Shown piece by piece: positions 4,020 through 10,419 of a stretch of DNA of 64,000 nucleotides. Position 1 is the stretch's first letter. Every line of letters begins with the position of its first letter. The translations under genes were made by a program, and so were the position numbers. Source of the DNA: Hymenobacter aranciens (lineage in GTDB: Bacteria; Bacteroidota; Bacteroidia; Cytophagales; Hymenobacteraceae). Under the pieces are notes generated by a model. That model ran no database searches, was not told the origin of the DNA, and saw only the letters and a list, made by a program, of their open reading frames with translations. Location: positions 62,001-126,000 of the forward strand of contig NZ_JAUQSY010000005.1 in assembly GCF_030580865.1 (NCBI RefSeq). Direction: 5' to 3'.

Positions 4020-4643
4020 TCAAACCCGCGCGTAAGCAGCATCCAACGGCCGCGGACGAAAATACCCCTTCACGCAGTTGGGGTTGCGAATCGCAATCTG
4101 AATGTGGTTCTTCAGCTTAAAGCCTACCGTCGGGTACAGCTCATCACCCTCCCAGAACACCCCGCGGACAGAATCAAAGGGCTGCTCACCCTCGGAAGCC
4201 CGCGCAATATGTACCCCGTTGATGATAAGACAGTCCAATTCCCGGCGCAGCAGGTCTTCGCTCGCAACGTCTCTTCCTTTCTTATTCGACGGCAATGCAG
4301 AGCCAGTCAGTTCAGCCGCCTCTTTCAGCGTCAGGTAGCTTTCCTGCAGCAGGCCGAGGTTGTCCATGTTCACTAGGTCCAAGCAGAAGCCTAAATCCAG
4401 CACGACACCAACTACGGCAGGCGTAGTAATCAGACGCTGGGCCTGGTGCGGATTGTCGCGCAGTTCGTGCGCGTACTGCAGGGCGCGCTCCGGGCTTTGC
4501 TCCCAGAAATAGATGCCTTCGCCTAACCAGTCGTAGATATTACGACTGGCGTAGAGGTTTTCGCTCGATGCGATGACGCGGTCGGCTACCTCTGCACCAC
4601 AGCCGTGAAATCCGAGAATTAATCCTGGGCGAGTAGCGTACAC
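4020..4643 (-). CDS. Predicted ADP-ribosyltransferase-fold toxin of a toxin-antitoxin-like pair
   Basis: 207 residues from a GTG start. The N-terminus carries GFHGC (His13) and then LGEGIYFWEQSPERALQYA (Tyr45), which resemble the HG and G.GFY...A..WA motifs of the H-Y-E class of ADP-ribosyltransferases, including DUF3990-type toxins. A later FWEGDELYP with Glu165 could supply the third residue. No signal peptide or membrane segment is seen, so action in the cytoplasm is likely. The gene overlaps the end of a small upstream ORF by 25 bases, the arrangement of an antitoxin-toxin operon. The fold assignment is from short motifs only; an unrelated NAD- or nucleotide-binding fold is possible. Confidence 0.6.
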   Translation of the reverse strand: MYATRPGLILGFHGCGAEVADRVIASSENLYASRNIYDWLGEGIYFWEQSPERALQYAHELRDNPHQAQRLITTPAVVGVVLDLGFCLDLVNMDNLGLLQESYLTLKEAAELTGSALPSNKKGRDVASEDLLRRELDCLIINGVHIARASEGEQPFDSVRGVFWEGDELYPTVGFKLKNHIQIAIRNPNCVKGYFRPRPLDAAYARV

Positions 4644-4792
4644 AAAGCCTGGTGCTTTTCGTCAACCTTCCCCTTCTCGTCAAGCACGCACAGAGCGATA
4701 AGGTAGGCGCGGGCTGCTTCCGGAGTAGCCGTTACCTTTTTACGCTGCTCCTGGAGGGCTTCCAGCGTGATTTGATAGTCTTGCTGTGACAT
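4619..4792 (-). CDS. Small putative antitoxin upstream of the ADP-ribosyltransferase-like gene
   Basis: 57 residues starting at the ATG at 4790-4792; a longer open frame continues upstream but its sequence is arginine/cysteine-rich and does not look coding. The product is charged and probably all-helical (QDYQITLEALQEQRKKV, then KGKVDEKHQALCTLLAQD), with no recognised DNA-binding motif. It precedes and overlaps the putative toxin by 25 bases, so translation is probably coupled. Role as antitoxin is inferred from position and size only. Confidence 0.6.
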   Translation of the reverse strand: MSQQDYQITLEALQEQRKKVTATPEAARAYLIALCVLDEKGKVDEKHQALCTLLAQD

Positions 4793-5294
4793 GCCGGATG
4801 AGAGTAAATGATGGAAAAAGAACCGTATAGATAAAAGTAATCCTAAAATCCTTGGACTAGTGCCACGAAGTACGAAAAAGAGGGATAGCAGGTGAAAATA
4901 AACGGCGTGAGGCCGGTGTTGATGACCGGGTGAAGTTGACCACCACAGGGGCTGGCAGCAGCGGGCAGCACCGATGGGCCCGCACCACCTGCTCTTGGCA
5001 GTACTGGAAAGAACGCCCATACCACCCGCCACTCCTCCTGCACCCACCGCGCCTGCAGTGGCTGCGCACCGGAGAGTACTGTGCCTATCCAGTCCAGTCA
5101 ACCCCAACGGTCGCGGCCGTCTCTCCTCAAGTCACAAGCCTCCCTATGCGATTTGCCTACCTGCGTAGTCCGGGTGCCTGTTACCCCCTCCCATATAACA
5201 TTCTTAGATAACTCCGTCACGAAACGACCGGTACTACTCGAGGTAGCTTCGACGCGGTACCTTCCCGGTTTGGAGTATGATGCCCAATAATGCC
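4793..5294. other. Intergenic region without a recognised gene
   Basis: About 500 bases between the divergent toxin-antitoxin-like pair and the tRNA-like array. Short open frames exist on both strands but none gives protein-like composition or a known family. The part nearest the antitoxin start (4793-4860) is AT-richer and probably holds its promoter. Confidence 0.4.
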
Positions 5295-5319: not shown

Positions 5320-5391
5320 TAAACTGTAGCTCAATGGAAGAGCGCCATCTTGCCAGGATGGAGGTTGCCAGTTCGAGCCTGGCCAGTTTAC
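5320..5391 (+). tRNA. tRNA-like gene, GCC (glycine) anticodon, atypical body
   Basis: A full cloverleaf folds: acceptor TAAACTG/CAGTTTA, U8-A9, D stem GCTC/GAGC with G18-G19 in the loop, anticodon stem CCATC/GATGG with loop TTGCCAG (U33, anticodon GCC, purine 37), five-base variable loop, T stem GCCAG/CTGGC with loop TTCGAGC. No CCA is encoded. The acceptor starts with a U1-A72 pair, is AU-rich and is followed by C at position 73; none of this fits a normal glycine tRNA, which has a G1-C72, GC-rich stem. It shares its body with the next tRNA-like gene. Whether it is charged with glycine is doubtful. Confidence 0.75.
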
Positions 5392-5447
5392 CGACTTTTA
5401 TACTCCAGGCGATGTCTTTGAAGATTGTTTTCTAATTTCAGTACAGG

Positions 5448-5519
5448 TAAACTGTAGCTCAAATGGAAGAGCATCCGTCTCCAAAACGGAGGTTGCCAGT
5501 TCGATTCTGGCCAGTTTAC
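5448..5519 (+). tRNA. tRNA-like gene, CCA (tryptophan) anticodon, atypical body
   Basis: The cloverleaf is as complete as in the upstream copy: acceptor TAAACTG/CAGTTTA identical to copy 1, D stem GCTC/GAGC with one extra loop base, anticodon stem TCCGT/ACGGA with loop CTCCAAA (U33, anticodon CCA, A37), four-base variable loop, T stem GCCAG/CTGGC, loop TTCGATT. No CCA tail is encoded and position 73 is C, whereas bacterial tRNA-Trp has G73. Both sides of the anticodon stem differ from copy 1 yet still pair. The 3' end lies only about 20 bases before the SDR start codon, so the tRNA sits in or directly ahead of the mRNA leader. Confidence 0.75.
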
Positions 5520-5538
5520 CACTTTTTATCTATAGGCG

Positions 5539-6909
5539 ATGTCTTTGCAGGAAGAGCCCCTTTTTTCAACGGAGGAATGGCAAGCTTGCCTGAAAGTGCT
5601 GCAAATCCTTTCCCGCAATCCCCACCTGGCCGACGACTCCCCGCAGCTCCAAGGGCTGGTGGCTAAGTTGAATCAGAAGGCCCGCAAATCGAAACGCAAA
5701 CAAACCCTCCAACAGCAGCAGGAGTCGGACCGGGCCATCAAGGAAAATACCTTCCTCTGCCGTCAGGAATCGGATACCCCCCTACTACCGGCCTTGCCGG
5801 AATTACCGGCTGTGCAGCCGGAGGGCAACCAGTATCTACACCGGGCCACCCGGTGTTATGTGTGCAAGGGACGTTATGTTGAGGTACACGCTTTTTACCA
5901 TTTGCTTTGCCCGGCTTGTGCCCGACTCAATTTTGATTGTCGCTTTCAACGGACGGAACTACGGGGCCGAATCGCCTTGCTAACGGGTGGACGCATAAAA
6001 ATTGGCTTCGAAACGGCTTTAAAACTGCTCCGGGATGGCGCTCGGGTAATCGTGACCACCCGCTTTCCGCAGGATGCCATCAGCCGATACGCCAAAGAAA
6101 CCGATTTTGAGCGCTGGAAAGACCGGCTCCAGATTTATAGCCTTGACCTTCGGGATGTCAGGGCCGTGGAGGATTTTATCGGGTACCTGAAAGGGACGTT
6201 GTCGCACCTGGACATCATCATCAACAATGCGGCGCAGACTATTCGGCGCCCGCGGGCATTTTATGAGTCCTTACTGCTAGCCGAAGGGGCGACACCAGCG
6301 AACCAAGCGTTATTGGCTACGCCCTCGCATATAAAATCCTTCGACGGGCTTTCGGAGGCCCTCCCATCCTACTTCCCCACCCACTTACTCGACCGGCACG
6401 GGCAGCAGGTCGACCTTCGTCCGCACAACAGTTGGCGGCTGCGCCTGGAGGAGGTGGAAACCGCCGAATGGCTGGAAGTACATCTGGTCAATGCCATGGC
6501 CCCCTTTCTGTTGAACAGCAAGCTGCAGCCGCTGTTGCTGAAGTCGCCGTTCGAGCGGCGGTTTATTGTGAACGTCTCGGCGATGGAGGGACAATTCAAT
6601 CGCGCCTCCAAAACCGCCTTCCATCCGCATACCAACATGGCCAAAGCGGCCTTGAATATGATGACCCGTACGTCGGCCGCTGCGTATGCCCGTGACCGCA
6701 TTTATATGAACAGCGTGGATACCGGGTGGATTACCGACGAAGACCCCCACCCCCGGAAAGCCCGCAAGCGCAGTGCCGGTTTCGTCCCGCCCCTGGATGA
6801 ACTCGACGGGGCCGCCCGGATTTACGACCCCATCGTGCGGGGAATCAACCAGCCGCAGGAACCGCTGTCGGGGTATTTCTTAAAAGATTATCAGCCGCAT
6901 CCCTGGTGA
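5539..6909 (+). CDS. Zinc-ribbon/SDR fusion protein with altered catalytic site
   Basis: 456 residues. Residues 1-75 are helical and charged; 106-127 hold two CxxC pairs (Cys106/109 and Cys124/127, with His117 and His121 between), a likely zinc ribbon. From 142 a short-chain dehydrogenase/reductase Rossmann domain follows: TGGRIKIG cofactor loop at 149-156, LDLRD near 202-206, NNAAQ at 229-233, Ser347 in NVSAM. The expected YxxxK is HTNMAK, with Lys369 kept but Thr365 where the tyrosine belongs, so ordinary SDR redox chemistry may be lost or done differently. The start ATG is part of the sequence duplicated with the tRNA-like genes. The LRR gene follows after 19 bases, presumably in one operon. 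Substrate unknown. Confidence 0.8.
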   Translation: MSLQEEPLFSTEEWQACLKVLQILSRNPHLADDSPQLQGLVAKLNQKARKSKRKQTLQQQQESDRAIKENTFLCRQESDTPLLPALPELPAVQPEGNQYLHRATRCYVCKGRYVEVHAFYHLLCPACARLNFDCRFQRTELRGRIALLTGGRIKIGFETALKLLRDGARVIVTTRFPQDAISRYAKETDFERWKDRLQIYSLDLRDVRAVEDFIGYLKGTLSHLDIIINNAAQTIRRPRAFYESLLLAEGATPANQALLATPSHIKSFDGLSEALPSYFPTHLLDRHGQQVDLRPHNSWRLRLEEVETAEWLEVHLVNAMAPFLLNSKLQPLLLKSPFERRFIVNVSAMEGQFNRASKTAFHPHTNMAKAALNMMTRTSAAAYARDRIYMNSVDTGWITDEDPHPRKARKRSAGFVPPLDELDGAARIYDPIVRGINQPQEPLSGYFLKDYQPHPW

Positions 6910-6928
6910 GGAACCCACCAATTACCCG

Positions 6929-8098
6929 ATGAAAGAAACCTCTGGCCCTATCCCTGTTCCGATTGTTTGTCCGGTGCAGGAAACCGTTCGGGAGTCCCCG
7001 GACCTGGCAGCCCAGCTGGAGCCGCTATTGGCGTATTTGTGCACCAATCAGGCTCCCGAAAACGACCAGTCCTTTCCCCGGGGCACCATCACGTCCGATG
7101 GCCGACTGGATTTGTGCAAACAGGACATTGGCCCAGCCGGGGCAAAATTAGTAACCGAGGCACTGGCGCAGAACACCTTTGTCCGGCATCTATTGATGGG
7201 CACGAACGGAATAGGTGATGAAGGAGCAGCCCACCTGGCATCGTTGCTCGAGCAGAATACGGCTCTTCAAACCATCTATTTGGGGTGCAATTATATCCAG
7301 ACGGCGGGAATGGCGGCCCTTACCGGGGCGCTTCGGGAGAATACCACCGTCGAAGGCCTATGGCTGAAGCGAAACGCCCTACATGCCCCGGGAGTGGCGC
7401 AACTAACGGACTTGCTCCGGCATAATCGTGCCCTGCGGGTAGTAGATTTAGTGAATACCAACCTGGGTGCGGAAGGCTTCCGGAGCTTCATGAAAGTGCT
7501 GATTGAAACCAACCGGACCGTAGAGCGAATCTATCTAGGCGGCAATCAGCTTGGGGAGCGGGAAGCGCCCTACCTGGCGGAGCTGCTTACGCAAAATAAG
7601 CAAATCGTATCGCTGCAGCTGAACGTCAACCATCTGGGTGACAAAGGCGCTTGCATACTGGCAGAAGCCCTCAGTAGCAATGAAACGCTGCAAGAACTAG
7701 GACTGGCCAGCAATGGCATCGCCTCGACAGGGGCCATTGCGTTGCTGCAAGCCCTTCAGCATCATCCGGCTCTTCGAGTGCTCGACCTGGGCTACAGTCC
7801 TTCCACTCAGGTTCTAGGGGCCGCCGCCAACCAGTTGGACGATGAGGTAGCCCGGGAGCTGGCGGCTTTTCTCCGTACGAACCAGCAGATTCACAGCCTG
7901 AATTTGGTCCGTCATCAGTTTACGGAAAGCGGATTTCAACACTTGCTGAATGGCTTAGAACATAACGCTTCGCTGCAACACCTGCAGTTAGACGGCAACC
8001 CGCCGGAGCCCATCAAAGAATGGCTCCGAACCAGACAACGTCCAAGCGCTTCCAACCCGAACAGTTTAGTAACCGCCATTCGCAGTGTTTACCGCTAG
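6929..8098 (+). CDS. Leucine-rich-repeat protein, ribonuclease-inhibitor type
   Basis: 389 residues. After a short N-terminal segment, about ten repeats of roughly 28 residues run from about residue 55 to 370, each with the pattern LxLxxNxIxxxGAxxLAxxL (for example LLMGTNGIGDEGAAHLASLL and LGLASNGIASTGAIALLQAL). This is the ribonuclease-inhibitor/NLR class of LRR, a horseshoe scaffold for protein binding. No signal peptide, membrane segment or enzymatic domain is visible, so it is probably a cytoplasmic binding partner. It starts 19 bases after the SDR stop and is likely co-transcribed with it. Function unknown. Confidence 0.85.
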   Translation: MKETSGPIPVPIVCPVQETVRESPDLAAQLEPLLAYLCTNQAPENDQSFPRGTITSDGRLDLCKQDIGPAGAKLVTEALAQNTFVRHLLMGTNGIGDEGAAHLASLLEQNTALQTIYLGCNYIQTAGMAALTGALRENTTVEGLWLKRNALHAPGVAQLTDLLRHNRALRVVDLVNTNLGAEGFRSFMKVLIETNRTVERIYLGGNQLGEREAPYLAELLTQNKQIVSLQLNVNHLGDKGACILAEALSSNETLQELGLASNGIASTGAIALLQALQHHPALRVLDLGYSPSTQVLGAAANQLDDEVARELAAFLRTNQQIHSLNLVRHQFTESGFQHLLNGLEHNASLQHLQLDGNPPEPIKEWLRTRQRPSASNPNSLVTAIRSVYR

Positions 8099-8653: not shown

Positions 8654-9403
8654 TTAGTGGTCCAGCCAGTGCTTAAAGGCCGGCGCACGGCCGGCACTGA
8701 CAACCAGAGCCTCCCCCGCCGCCGGGGGGGCTATCTGCAGCACCAGGCGGCCCTTGAAATACGGCCGGATTTCCTGCACCGCCCCGATGCTCAGGATAAA
8801 CTGGCGGTTAATGCGAAAGAAGGTCCGGGCGTCCAGCTGGCCTTCGAGCTGGTCGAGCGTGTCGGGGATAATGAACCGCTTGCCCGCGTGAGTGACGAGG
8901 AACACCACACCTTCTTCAGCCAGAAAGTACGCCACGTCGTCCACCGGCACGGCTTTCAGAGCCTGCCCGGACTTCACTAGGAAGCGTGAGCGGGGCGTGC
9001 TGTGGACCAGGCGCTGCACGTTCGCTACGGCGGCCGGCAGCGTCGCAGGGTGCAAGGTTTCGTACTTCTGCAGGGCGCGTTCCACTTCCGCGGCTTGTAG
9101 GGGCTTGAGCAGGTAGTCCACGCTGTTCACTTGAAAGGCCTGGATGGCGTAGGCGTCGTAGGCGGTGGTGAAAATGACGGGCGCGCCCACCGCCACCTGC
9201 CGGAAGATGTCGAAGCTGTTGCCGTCCGACAAGTGGATGTCGCAGAAAAGCAAATCGGGGGCTGGCTGTTCGCGCAGCCATTCCACGGCTTCTTCCACCG
9301 AGCCCAGGGCCGCCAGAATGCGTACGGCGGGCCGGAGGCGGGTGAGCAGGGTGGCCAGCGCCTGGGCGGCCAGGGGCTCGTCTTCAATGAGTAGGACTCT
9401 CAT
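8654..9403 (-). CDS. LytTR-family response regulator
   Basis: 249 residues starting at MRVLLIEDE. Residues 1-120 are a receiver domain with the acidic pair ED, phospho-acceptor Asp in LLFCDIHL and Lys in YLLKPL. Residues about 145-245 are a LytTR DNA-binding domain (FLVKSGQALKAVPVDDVAYF, then FFRINRQFILSIGAVQEI). Its ATG overlaps the stop of the sensor kinase gene in an ATGA motif, so the two are translated together and form a LytS/LytT-type system. The target genes are unknown; the divergent DUF2339 gene is a neighbour but not a proven target. Confidence 0.9.
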   Translation of the reverse strand: MRVLLIEDEPLAAQALATLLTRLRPAVRILAALGSVEEAVEWLREQPAPDLLFCDIHLSDGNSFDIFRQVAVGAPVIFTTAYDAYAIQAFQVNSVDYLLKPLQAAEVERALQKYETLHPATLPAAVANVQRLVHSTPRSRFLVKSGQALKAVPVDDVAYFLAEEGVVFLVTHAGKRFIIPDTLDQLEGQLDARTFFRINRQFILSIGAVQEIRPYFKGRLVLQIAPPAAGEALVVSAGRAPAFKHWLDH

Positions 9404-10419
9404 ACGGCGGGGGCGGTCAGGAGCGGGAGGCGGACGATGAAGGATTCCGCCGTGGGCACGATTTCCACGGGGCGGTCGGTGAGGTGCTGGTAGCGGCGCT
9501 GGATGTTGAGCAGGCCCAGGTGGGTGGACGTTACCGCGTCGGGGCGGGGCTGCCGGTTGTTTTCGACCACCAGCCGGCCGTCGGCGGTGGATACTTTTAT
9601 AACCAGGGGCTTGCGAATGGTAGAGCCGTTGTGCTTGATGGCGTTTTCCAGCAGCATCTGCACGGCGGTGGGGGGTACCAGGGCCTGCTCGCAGGCCGGA
9701 GCCACGTCCCATTCCACGCGCAGGGCCGCGCCGAAGCGGGTTTCCATCAGGCTGGCGTAGGCGCGCACCAGGGTCATTTCGCGGTGCAGCGGTACCAGCG
9801 GTTGCGCCCCGGAATCGAGCAGGGCGCGGTAGACCTCTGAGAGTTGGCCGAGGAACTGCCCGGCCCGGTCCGGGTCAATATGAATCAAGGACCCGAGCAC
9901 GTTGAGGCTGTTGAACAGGAAGTGGGGGTCCACCTGGTTTTTCAGGGCTTCGAACTGCGCCTGGAAGGTTTCTTTCTGCAGCTGCGCCACCCGCACCACT
10001 TCCTGCGCCAGGTGTTGGCGGACATGCTCGCGCTCCACGAAGTAGTAGAAGAACAAGGACAGCACCGCGCTGACCGCCAGCGAGACGCGCAAGGCTTTGG
10101 GCGTGATTTCCGACGTGGGCACTAGGTAGTGCTGCGGGATGGTGAAGAACACCAGCCAGAAAACCAGGCTGACCAGCACCACGCAGAGCCCTTCCAGCAG
10201 GGCTTTCGCCGAGACGGGCAGCGTGGTCAGCCGATCGGCGCCAAAGAGGCGGGCAAGGGGCGCATGCACCCAGAAGGTGGGCAGTAGAAAGGCAAATACC
10301 AGCAGCAGTTGCTGATAGCCGACCAGCGCGCCCCCCCACCAGGTGCCATACTGGATGAACACCGCCACGTGAAAGACTACCGTGGCGGCCAGGGCGGCCA
10401 GCACAATTTTTCGAATCAT
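9400..10419 (-). CDS. LytS-type sensor histidine kinase
   Basis: 339 residues. The N-terminal 150 residues contain four hydrophobic segments, compatible with four transmembrane helices, and no large external sensor domain. Then comes the His_kinase domain with the phospho-acceptor His in QVDPHFLFNSLNVL and an ATP-binding N box LLENAIKHN. The gene overlaps the response regulator by four bases. The signal is not apparent. The divergent intergenic region to the DUF2339 gene (10420-10609) is short enough to hold promoters for both. Confidence 0.9.
   Translation of the reverse strand: MIRKIVLAALAATVVFHVAVFIQYGTWWGGALVGYQQLLLVFAFLLPTFWVHAPLARLFGADRLTTLPVSAKALLEGLCVVLVSLVFWLVFFTIPQHYLVPTSEITPKALRVSLAVSAVLSLFFYYFVEREHVRQHLAQEVVRVAQLQKETFQAQFEALKNQVDPHFLFNSLNVLGSLIHIDPDRAGQFLGQLSEVYRALLDSGAQPLVPLHREMTLVRAYASLMETRFGAALRVEWDVAPACEQALVPPTAVQMLLENAIKHNGSTIRKPLVIKVSTADGRLVVENNRQPRPDAVTSTHLGLLNIQRRYQHLTDRPVEIVPTAESFIVRLPLLTAPAV

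Follow-up and report, generated by a model that had tools for sequence, protein, structure and literature searches.

A possible RNA-protein module pairing an altered SDR-ribbon protein with arrays of tRNA mimics in Hymenobacter aranciens and other bacteria

A 64,000-nucleotide stretch of the Hymenobacter aranciens genome (NCBI RefSeq assembly GCF_030580865.1, contig NZ_JAUQSY010000005.1, positions 62,001 to 126,000; hereafter the window) contains a compact locus in which two tRNA-like genes, a gene for a short-chain dehydrogenase/reductase (SDR)-fold protein with a zinc ribbon, and a gene for a leucine-rich repeat (LRR) protein follow one another (Table 1). From the features of these sequences we tentatively read the locus, at somewhat less than an even chance, as an RNA-protein module in which tRNA mimics bound by the SDR protein would act as decoys or sentinels for anticodon nucleases; the module is probably tied to tRNA damage and repair. 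The computed observations are the linkage of the tRNA-like genes to the SDR gene, their shared strand and tight spacing, an anticodon arm that changes quickly while its pairing is kept, the loss of U33 in many members, a restricted anticodon set, and an RNA-repair context in one class. The fast-changing anticodon arms are the main peculiarity of these genes and were absent from the initial annotation of the stretch.

That annotation had described head-to-tail tRNA-like genes, a ribbon-bearing SDR protein without the catalytic Tyr, and an LRR protein on one strand, an arrangement confirmed by ARAGORN, Rfam, Pfam, and the coordinates of the open reading frames (ORFs). Only 18 nt separate the second tRNA-like gene from the SDR ORF, and 19 nt separate the SDR and LRR genes. 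ARAGORN and Rfam both recover the cloverleaf in the window's pair; no Rfam match to Y RNA families was found in the window. The two genes have a common body (TAAACTG...CAGTTTA) and the same T arm; their bodies are near-identical, and differences fall mainly in the anticodon arm. All three parts recur once more in the host genome (Bacteroidota, 6.0 Mb), on another contig; there the SDR and LRR proteins are 91% and 86% identical to those of the window, and the anticodons are GCC and GCA. Because of this second copy, and because the same arrangement recurs in other phyla, the module goes beyond a chance grouping. Ordinary Gly-GCC, Trp-CCA, and Cys-GCA tRNA genes are found elsewhere in the genome; an extra, divergent tRNA-Trp (CCA) gene (L174:1501-1572) is present alongside the ordinary one.

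Table 1. Parts of the tRNA-like/SDR/LRR locus, in window coordinates
Feature	Position	Strand	Anticodon and loop	Basis
tRNA-like gene 1	5320-5392	+	GCC (Gly), loop TTGCCAG	ARAGORN; Rfam RF00005, 58.4 bits
tRNA-like gene 2	5448-5520	+	CCA (Trp), loop CTCCAAA	ARAGORN; Rfam RF00005, 61.7 bits
SDR-fold protein, 456 aa	5539-6909	+		Pfam adh_short, 5e-19; alignment; AlphaFold2; Foldseek/VIA-align
LRR protein, 389 aa, LRR_6 repeats	6929-8098	+		Pfam; alignment; family distribution

Relatives of the SDR protein came from GTDB contigs (13 loci), 395 Bacteroidota genomes (6 with a match), plasmids (4 records), two genera of Flavobacteriia (85 of 249 in the first and 56 of 173 in the second), Myxococcota (104 of 193), and the window's own genus (1 of 120); 112 SDR loci, among the matches listed, were examined. 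One locus of the second Flavobacteriia genus (L112) has an SDR sequence identical to that of a Chryseobacterium locus (L009). tRNA genes lie within 1.2 kb of the SDR gene at 64 of the 112 loci and are absent from that distance at 48; the positive loci belong to Bacteroidota, Planctomycetota, Pseudomonadota (Massilia), Myxococcota, Deinococcota, and Chloroflexota. Every ARAGORN tRNA within 1,150 nt shares the strand of the SDR gene (200/200). The arrays hold one to seven copies, and the side of the SDR gene on which they are placed, upstream or downstream, varies by lineage; in downstream arrays, the nearest tRNA-like gene starts 7-14 nt past the SDR match at 37 of 47 loci. On the SDR tree—a quick tree with some long branches—presence and absence of tRNA-likes require 4 changes, as compared with 36.2 in shuffles. 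A large SDR branch, common in Myxococcota and in one Flavobacteriia genus, has no tRNA genes nearby (0/36; L057-L074, L136-L153), and a relaxed scan for degenerate tRNA-likes near loci without ARAGORN hits (L013, L128, L130-L133, L007) found none. The association of SDR and tRNA-like genes is strong. The initial annotation had held that tRNA-likes, SDR, and LRR belong together, and this is upheld by the linkage of SDR and tRNA-likes in six phyla and by the LRR gene downstream at 9 loci; SDR and LRR homologs that never co-occur, either mutually or with tRNA-like genes, had been named as the pattern that would speak against the grouping, and such a pattern was not found. Carriage as phage or plasmid cargo was rejected, with no match in 50,697 phage records or viral contigs and an SDR match in only 4 of 72,556 plasmids, one of which (Deinococcus) has a tRNA-like gene.

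Across 102 best-partner pairs of SDR-linked tRNA-likes, the anticodon arm shows 0.238 differences per site as compared with 0.062 outside it, a rate about four times faster; core and elbow are nearly invariant between partners, and positions 26-44 vary. Stem cells that changed on both sides are still paired in 77 of 82 cases and unpaired in 5, a count inflated by ARAGORN's preference for paired stems. Among the 80 pairs at least 95% identical elsewhere, the conserved anticodon of an elongator tRNA is not observed: the anticodon differs in 19 (0.104 differences per site, against 0.020 outside). Three Massilia species, for example, share an almost unchanged tRNA-like whose anticodon is TGC, GGC, or GCC, and in two Flavobacteriaceae one member differs only in its anticodon, GCT versus GCC.

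U33 is nearly universal among the tRNAs of translation. It is found in 105 of 167 unique tRNA-likes (lost in 62), as compared with 72 of 73 ordinary tRNAs from two host genomes, and a pyrimidine occupies position 37 in 37 of the 167 and in none of the 73. Most tRNA-like loops have 7 nt and a readable anticodon. The best reading of these data is that the SDR-linked tRNA-likes do not serve translation. Their anticodons are restricted: C35 or C36 is present in 157 of 167 unique members (counted over those with a 3-nt anticodon, ARAGORN's 2- or 4-letter anticodons being left out), against 18 of 39 and 16 of 34 ordinary tRNAs and 20 of 42 genes of a second array in the same islands; the associated p-value of 3.5e-11 cannot be taken literally, because the rows share ancestry. 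Anticodons following this rule would pair with codons whose first or second base is G (Gly, Ala, Val, Asp, Glu, Ser-AGY, Cys, Trp, Arg). A cleavable YpA step was considered as the cause of the C35/C36 rule and was not convincing (166/184 loops, as compared with 31/39 and 27/34 ordinary ones). A sealed acceptor stem was likewise rejected as a general trait; the ordinary tRNAs of the window's genome have an acceptor helix of at most 9 bp, mostly 7-9, as do most tRNA-likes. In several Myxococcota arrays this helix extends to 12-19 bp, which should bury the 3' end; the outlier group comprises seven mimic loci (L010, L125-L127, L129, L134, L135; 7-19 bp).

The SDR protein comprises N-terminal helices (residues 11-76), a zinc ribbon (C106, C109, C124, C127), and a Rossmann/SDR domain (about 139-456), and its AlphaFold2 model (pLDDT 85.9) gives helices, ribbon, and SDR fold in that order. 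The four ribbon cysteines and an H-P-H-T-N-M-x-K motif are invariant among 42 aligned relatives, and the Tyr of the catalytic YxxxK is absent from all 42, with Thr365 at that position, four before the Lys; the CxxC-CxxC ribbon and the replacement of the catalytic Tyr by Thr (HTNMAK in the window protein), both proposed initially, hold across these relatives. In place of the classical TGxxxGxG cofactor motif there is a TGGRxKxG type, with variants, in which Thr149, Gly150, Arg152, Lys154, and Gly156 are invariant. The number of invariant polar residues suggests continued binding of a ligand or substrate. Foldseek and VIA-align match the fold best to FabG-type reductases over about 139-456 (Z about 22-24, root-mean-square deviation about 3); this match concerns the Rossmann/SDR domain, as the structure-search rows barely cover the N-terminal helices and ribbon. 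Pfam gives SDR-type families only, with no TROVE domain. The Rossmann/SDR fold is therefore shared with classical SDR oxidoreductases (FabG, tropinone reductase, gluconate 5-dehydrogenase), but the window protein lacks the catalytic Tyr, has the altered glycine motif, and carries the added helices and ribbon. An SDR-fold protein in a tRNA-binding complex has a parallel in mitochondrial HSD10/SDR5C1 of animal RNase P, though HSD10 has neither a ribbon nor cognate tRNA-like genes.

In Flavobacteriia, the gene order is a DUF434/DUF5616 protein, a protein of about 229 aa, the SDR, the array, and then often TatD. Around this SDR, Pfam identifies RtcB, HAD_PNKP, RNA_lig_T4_1 (T4-type RNA ligases), RlaP, and TROVE, and further out some islands contain Band_7, Rnl2, and a second tRNA array. 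At least one repair gene is labelled in 14 of 16 Flavobacteriia stretches (L075-L086, L089-L092), as compared with none of five stretches around SDRs without tRNA-likes (L093, L094, L200-L202). The second array is found near SDR islands at L075, L081, L082, L086, L092, L184 with L234, and L186; it comprises about 18 genes around G942, adjoins genes for Band-7 and RNA ligase at several of these loci, and includes His, Lys, Asn, Asp, Arg, Pro, Glu, Ile, Tyr, Leu, Gln, Phe, Thr, and others. Among these are anticodons shunned by the SDR array (Lys, His, Asn, Pro, Leu, Ile, Tyr, and others). By extension of the reading given above, the second array may serve in Flavobacteriia to cover what the SDR array avoids, a doubtful but not idle suggestion; between them, the two arrays would then represent a large part of the tRNA repertoire. 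Three genomes (L184-L186) each have a pair of oppositely oriented SDR copies, about 14 kb from one another, that flank a gene block; the block of L184 contains genes of a MoxR-vWA-beta-propeller ternary system.

Cleavage of tRNA is a common weapon in conflicts among phages, bacteria, and competitors. Under the decoy or sentinel reading, the SDR-ribbon protein would bind the tRNA-shaped RNAs of its own operon through their conserved elbow and body; standing outside translation, these RNAs would present an anticodon arm with rapid evolutionary turnover, and would serve as substrates for anticodon-loop nucleases—competitors' toxins or the cell's own defence nucleases. A mimic that is cut would thereby protect the real tRNAs or report damage, and in Flavobacteriia the broken RNA would be mended by the ligases, kinase-phosphatase, RlaP, and TROVE protein encoded nearby. 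The LRR protein, or in Flavobacteriia the DUF434 and ~229-aa proteins, may be a regulatory partner of the particle. Mimics facing anticodon-loop enzymes are suggested because a conserved body, a fast arm, lost decoding marks, restricted anticodons, and an RNA-repair setting (in one class) occur together.

Several observations weigh against this reading. Both window tRNA-likes retain U33 and normal loops. Repair-gene labels near the SDR are confined to Flavobacteriia: none appears around the window locus (L088, 20 kb, where no Band-7 gene or RNA ligase is labelled either) or the second copy (L087), nor at the Massilia (L236), L237, Chloroflexota (L203), and Myxococcota mimic stretches (L192-L197), and within Chryseobacterium repair genes occur at one of eight loci (L184 with L234, around G942) and at none of L185-L191. 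PADLOC gives no match, with no PADLOC-DB family for the SDR, LRR, DUF434, or ~229-aa proteins. Mimicry of whole host anticodon arms was tested and gave a weak signal, the tRNA-like arms matching arms of ordinary tRNAs with the same anticodon at 6.22 of 14 positions as compared with 5.66 when shuffled (6/2000 and 27/2000 shuffles reach the observed value, and the rows are related). What similarity there is comes from Ser-GCT, Ala-TGC, and Asp-GTC members; CCA members resemble none. Because whole-arm similarity is weak, close mimicry of named host tRNAs is unsupported. The loss of U33 and the fast arms could also reflect relaxed selection. The defence or stress module envisaged at the outset stands in part, as the RNA-repair genes of Flavobacteriia link it to stress or conflict, but the same context is absent around the window. 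The finer roles envisaged with it, in which the ribbon would bind the tRNA-like RNA, the Rossmann fold would bind or modify a nucleotide, and the LRR protein would be a sensor or inhibitor, are conjectural.

The main rival, which we consider unlikely but serious, is a scaffold RNA in the style of Ro60 and Y RNA, whose body would tether the SDR protein (perhaps with ligase or nuclease partners) and whose anticodon arm would be a drifting spacer. The near-invariance of core and elbow beside variable positions 26-44 fits such a tether, as do the TROVE/Ro60 and RtcB neighbours in some islands; YrlA, which has a tRNA-like domain, shares an RNA-repair operon with Ro60 (PMC7790460). Free drift, however, would not hold 157 of 167 members within C35/C36, nor keep 7-nt loops and paired stems (77/82, given that ARAGORN favours pairing), and there would be no need for several arms per array, most of which differ in anticodon.

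Integration often targets tRNA genes, and the SDR-linked genes could be hitch-hikers—an integration site, or processing punctuation for an operon—beside an SDR that is a metabolic enzyme. This is improbable. The 48 of 112 loci without tRNA-likes imply a basic SDR role independent of them, and the many invariant SDR residues suggest an active site; constant strand, tight spacing, one to seven copies, six phyla, and congruence with the tree nevertheless argue otherwise, and arrays placed upstream or downstream by lineage speak against an attachment site or a cut site of fixed position. Little probability also attaches to specialised functional tRNAs that are charged for stress translation or as aminoacyl donors to an SDR reaction. 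Though the intact cloverleaf, good Rfam scores, mostly 7-nt loops with a readable anticodon, and a restricted amino-acid set would suit such tRNAs, the loss of U33 (62/167), the pyrimidine at position 37 (37/167), and anticodon switches between near-identical genes would not; moreover, the 12-19 bp acceptor helix of several Myxococcota loci would hide the 3' end, and the SDR protein is without its catalytic Tyr. A guide or effector role, in which the anticodon loop would base-pair with a target or compete for one (for example a synthetase, ribosome, or nuclease) and the mimic itself would be the inhibitor, is very improbable, for although the variable part is a single-stranded loop with a C35/C36 rule, only 3-7 variable unpaired bases are available, and no complementary target was found, no search for one having been made.

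Directly downstream of the SDR, the LRR gene is present at 9 of 112 loci (Bacteroidota, Massilia, and one myxobacterium), with a truncated form after the Deinococcus SDR as a tenth. The family keeps a CP motif at its N-terminal start and IRSVYR at its C-terminal end; in Planctomycetota, a tiny ORF in the LRR position (L002:3530-3670) consists only of the CP start and an IRSAYR end, as if the repeats had been lost. Among 395 Bacteroidota genomes the family occurs in one, that of the window, where both copies adjoin the SDR; among 193 Myxococcota it occurs in three, one adjoining the SDR and two inside a longer protein. In these two myxobacteria (L261, L262) the SVYR-tailed LRR makes up the C-terminal region of a long protein, which in L261 carries an FSH1-type serine hydrolase at its other end (Pfam). 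The family is rare and mostly beside the SDR-ribbon gene. The LRR protein as a part of the module thus holds where it adjoins the SDR, at 9 loci, but it is optional, since Flavobacteriia have the DUF434 and ~229-aa proteins instead. The AlphaFold2 model of the DUF434-DUF5616 protein is confident (90.4); the protein is at most a candidate PIN/NYN nuclease, Foldseek returning nothing at E <= 0.001 and only weak FEN/ExoIX rows.

In the surroundings of the window locus, the island of insertion sequence remnants and a toxin-antitoxin pair described initially is putative. Two overlapping minus-strand ORFs within 4020-5107 (4020-4643 and 4619-5107) have no Pfam match, and the former has no NCBIfam match either. 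ORF 4020-4643 contains HGCG and YDWLGEGIYFWE, and has what we take to be an ADP-ribosyltransferase-like look. Downstream of the LRR gene, 8654-10419 encodes an ordinary LytTR/histidine-kinase pair. At 69-2567, a LodA-type oxidase (PF18417) is followed by a flavoprotein ORF, forming a lysine-oxidase-like pair.

Among RNA-repair systems, Burroughs and Aravind reportedly described, in NAR in 2016, a "novel tRNA-like molecule" with SPFH/Band-7 systems (doi 10.1093/nar/gkw722). SDR-bearing Flavobacteriia islands also have tRNA-like genes that adjoin those for RNA ligase and Band-7, but these belong to the second, separate set, with an ordinary anticodon spread (20/42 with C35/C36) unlike that of the SDR arrays; the window locus differs again, as no Band-7 or ligase neighbour is labelled. 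The Ro60/YrlA pair resembles the SDR module in that the gene for a protein adjoins that for its own tRNA-like non-coding RNA, in an RNA-repair context, and a role for the YrlA tRNA-like domain as a competitive inhibitor of an anticodon nuclease has been suggested (PMC7790460). Unlike Ro60/YrlA, the SDR module has an SDR fold and zinc ribbon in place of a TROVE domain, and arrays of bare cloverleaves whose anticodon arms change fast. A literature search over titles and abstract starts, with most subscription papers outside its scope, did not find the combination described; absence from print is not claimed.

The locus may, with considerable doubt, represent a new class of ribonucleoprotein, in which an altered SDR-ribbon protein and arrays of mimics with arms-race anticodon arms would make up a quickly updated library of nuclease bait. 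Were the decoy or sentinel reading true, the anticodon arms would form a record of the nucleases met by each lineage, and a protein annotated as an ordinary oxidoreductase would have a non-metabolic role. These data also carry a warning that some annotated tRNA genes may not be tRNAs of translation.

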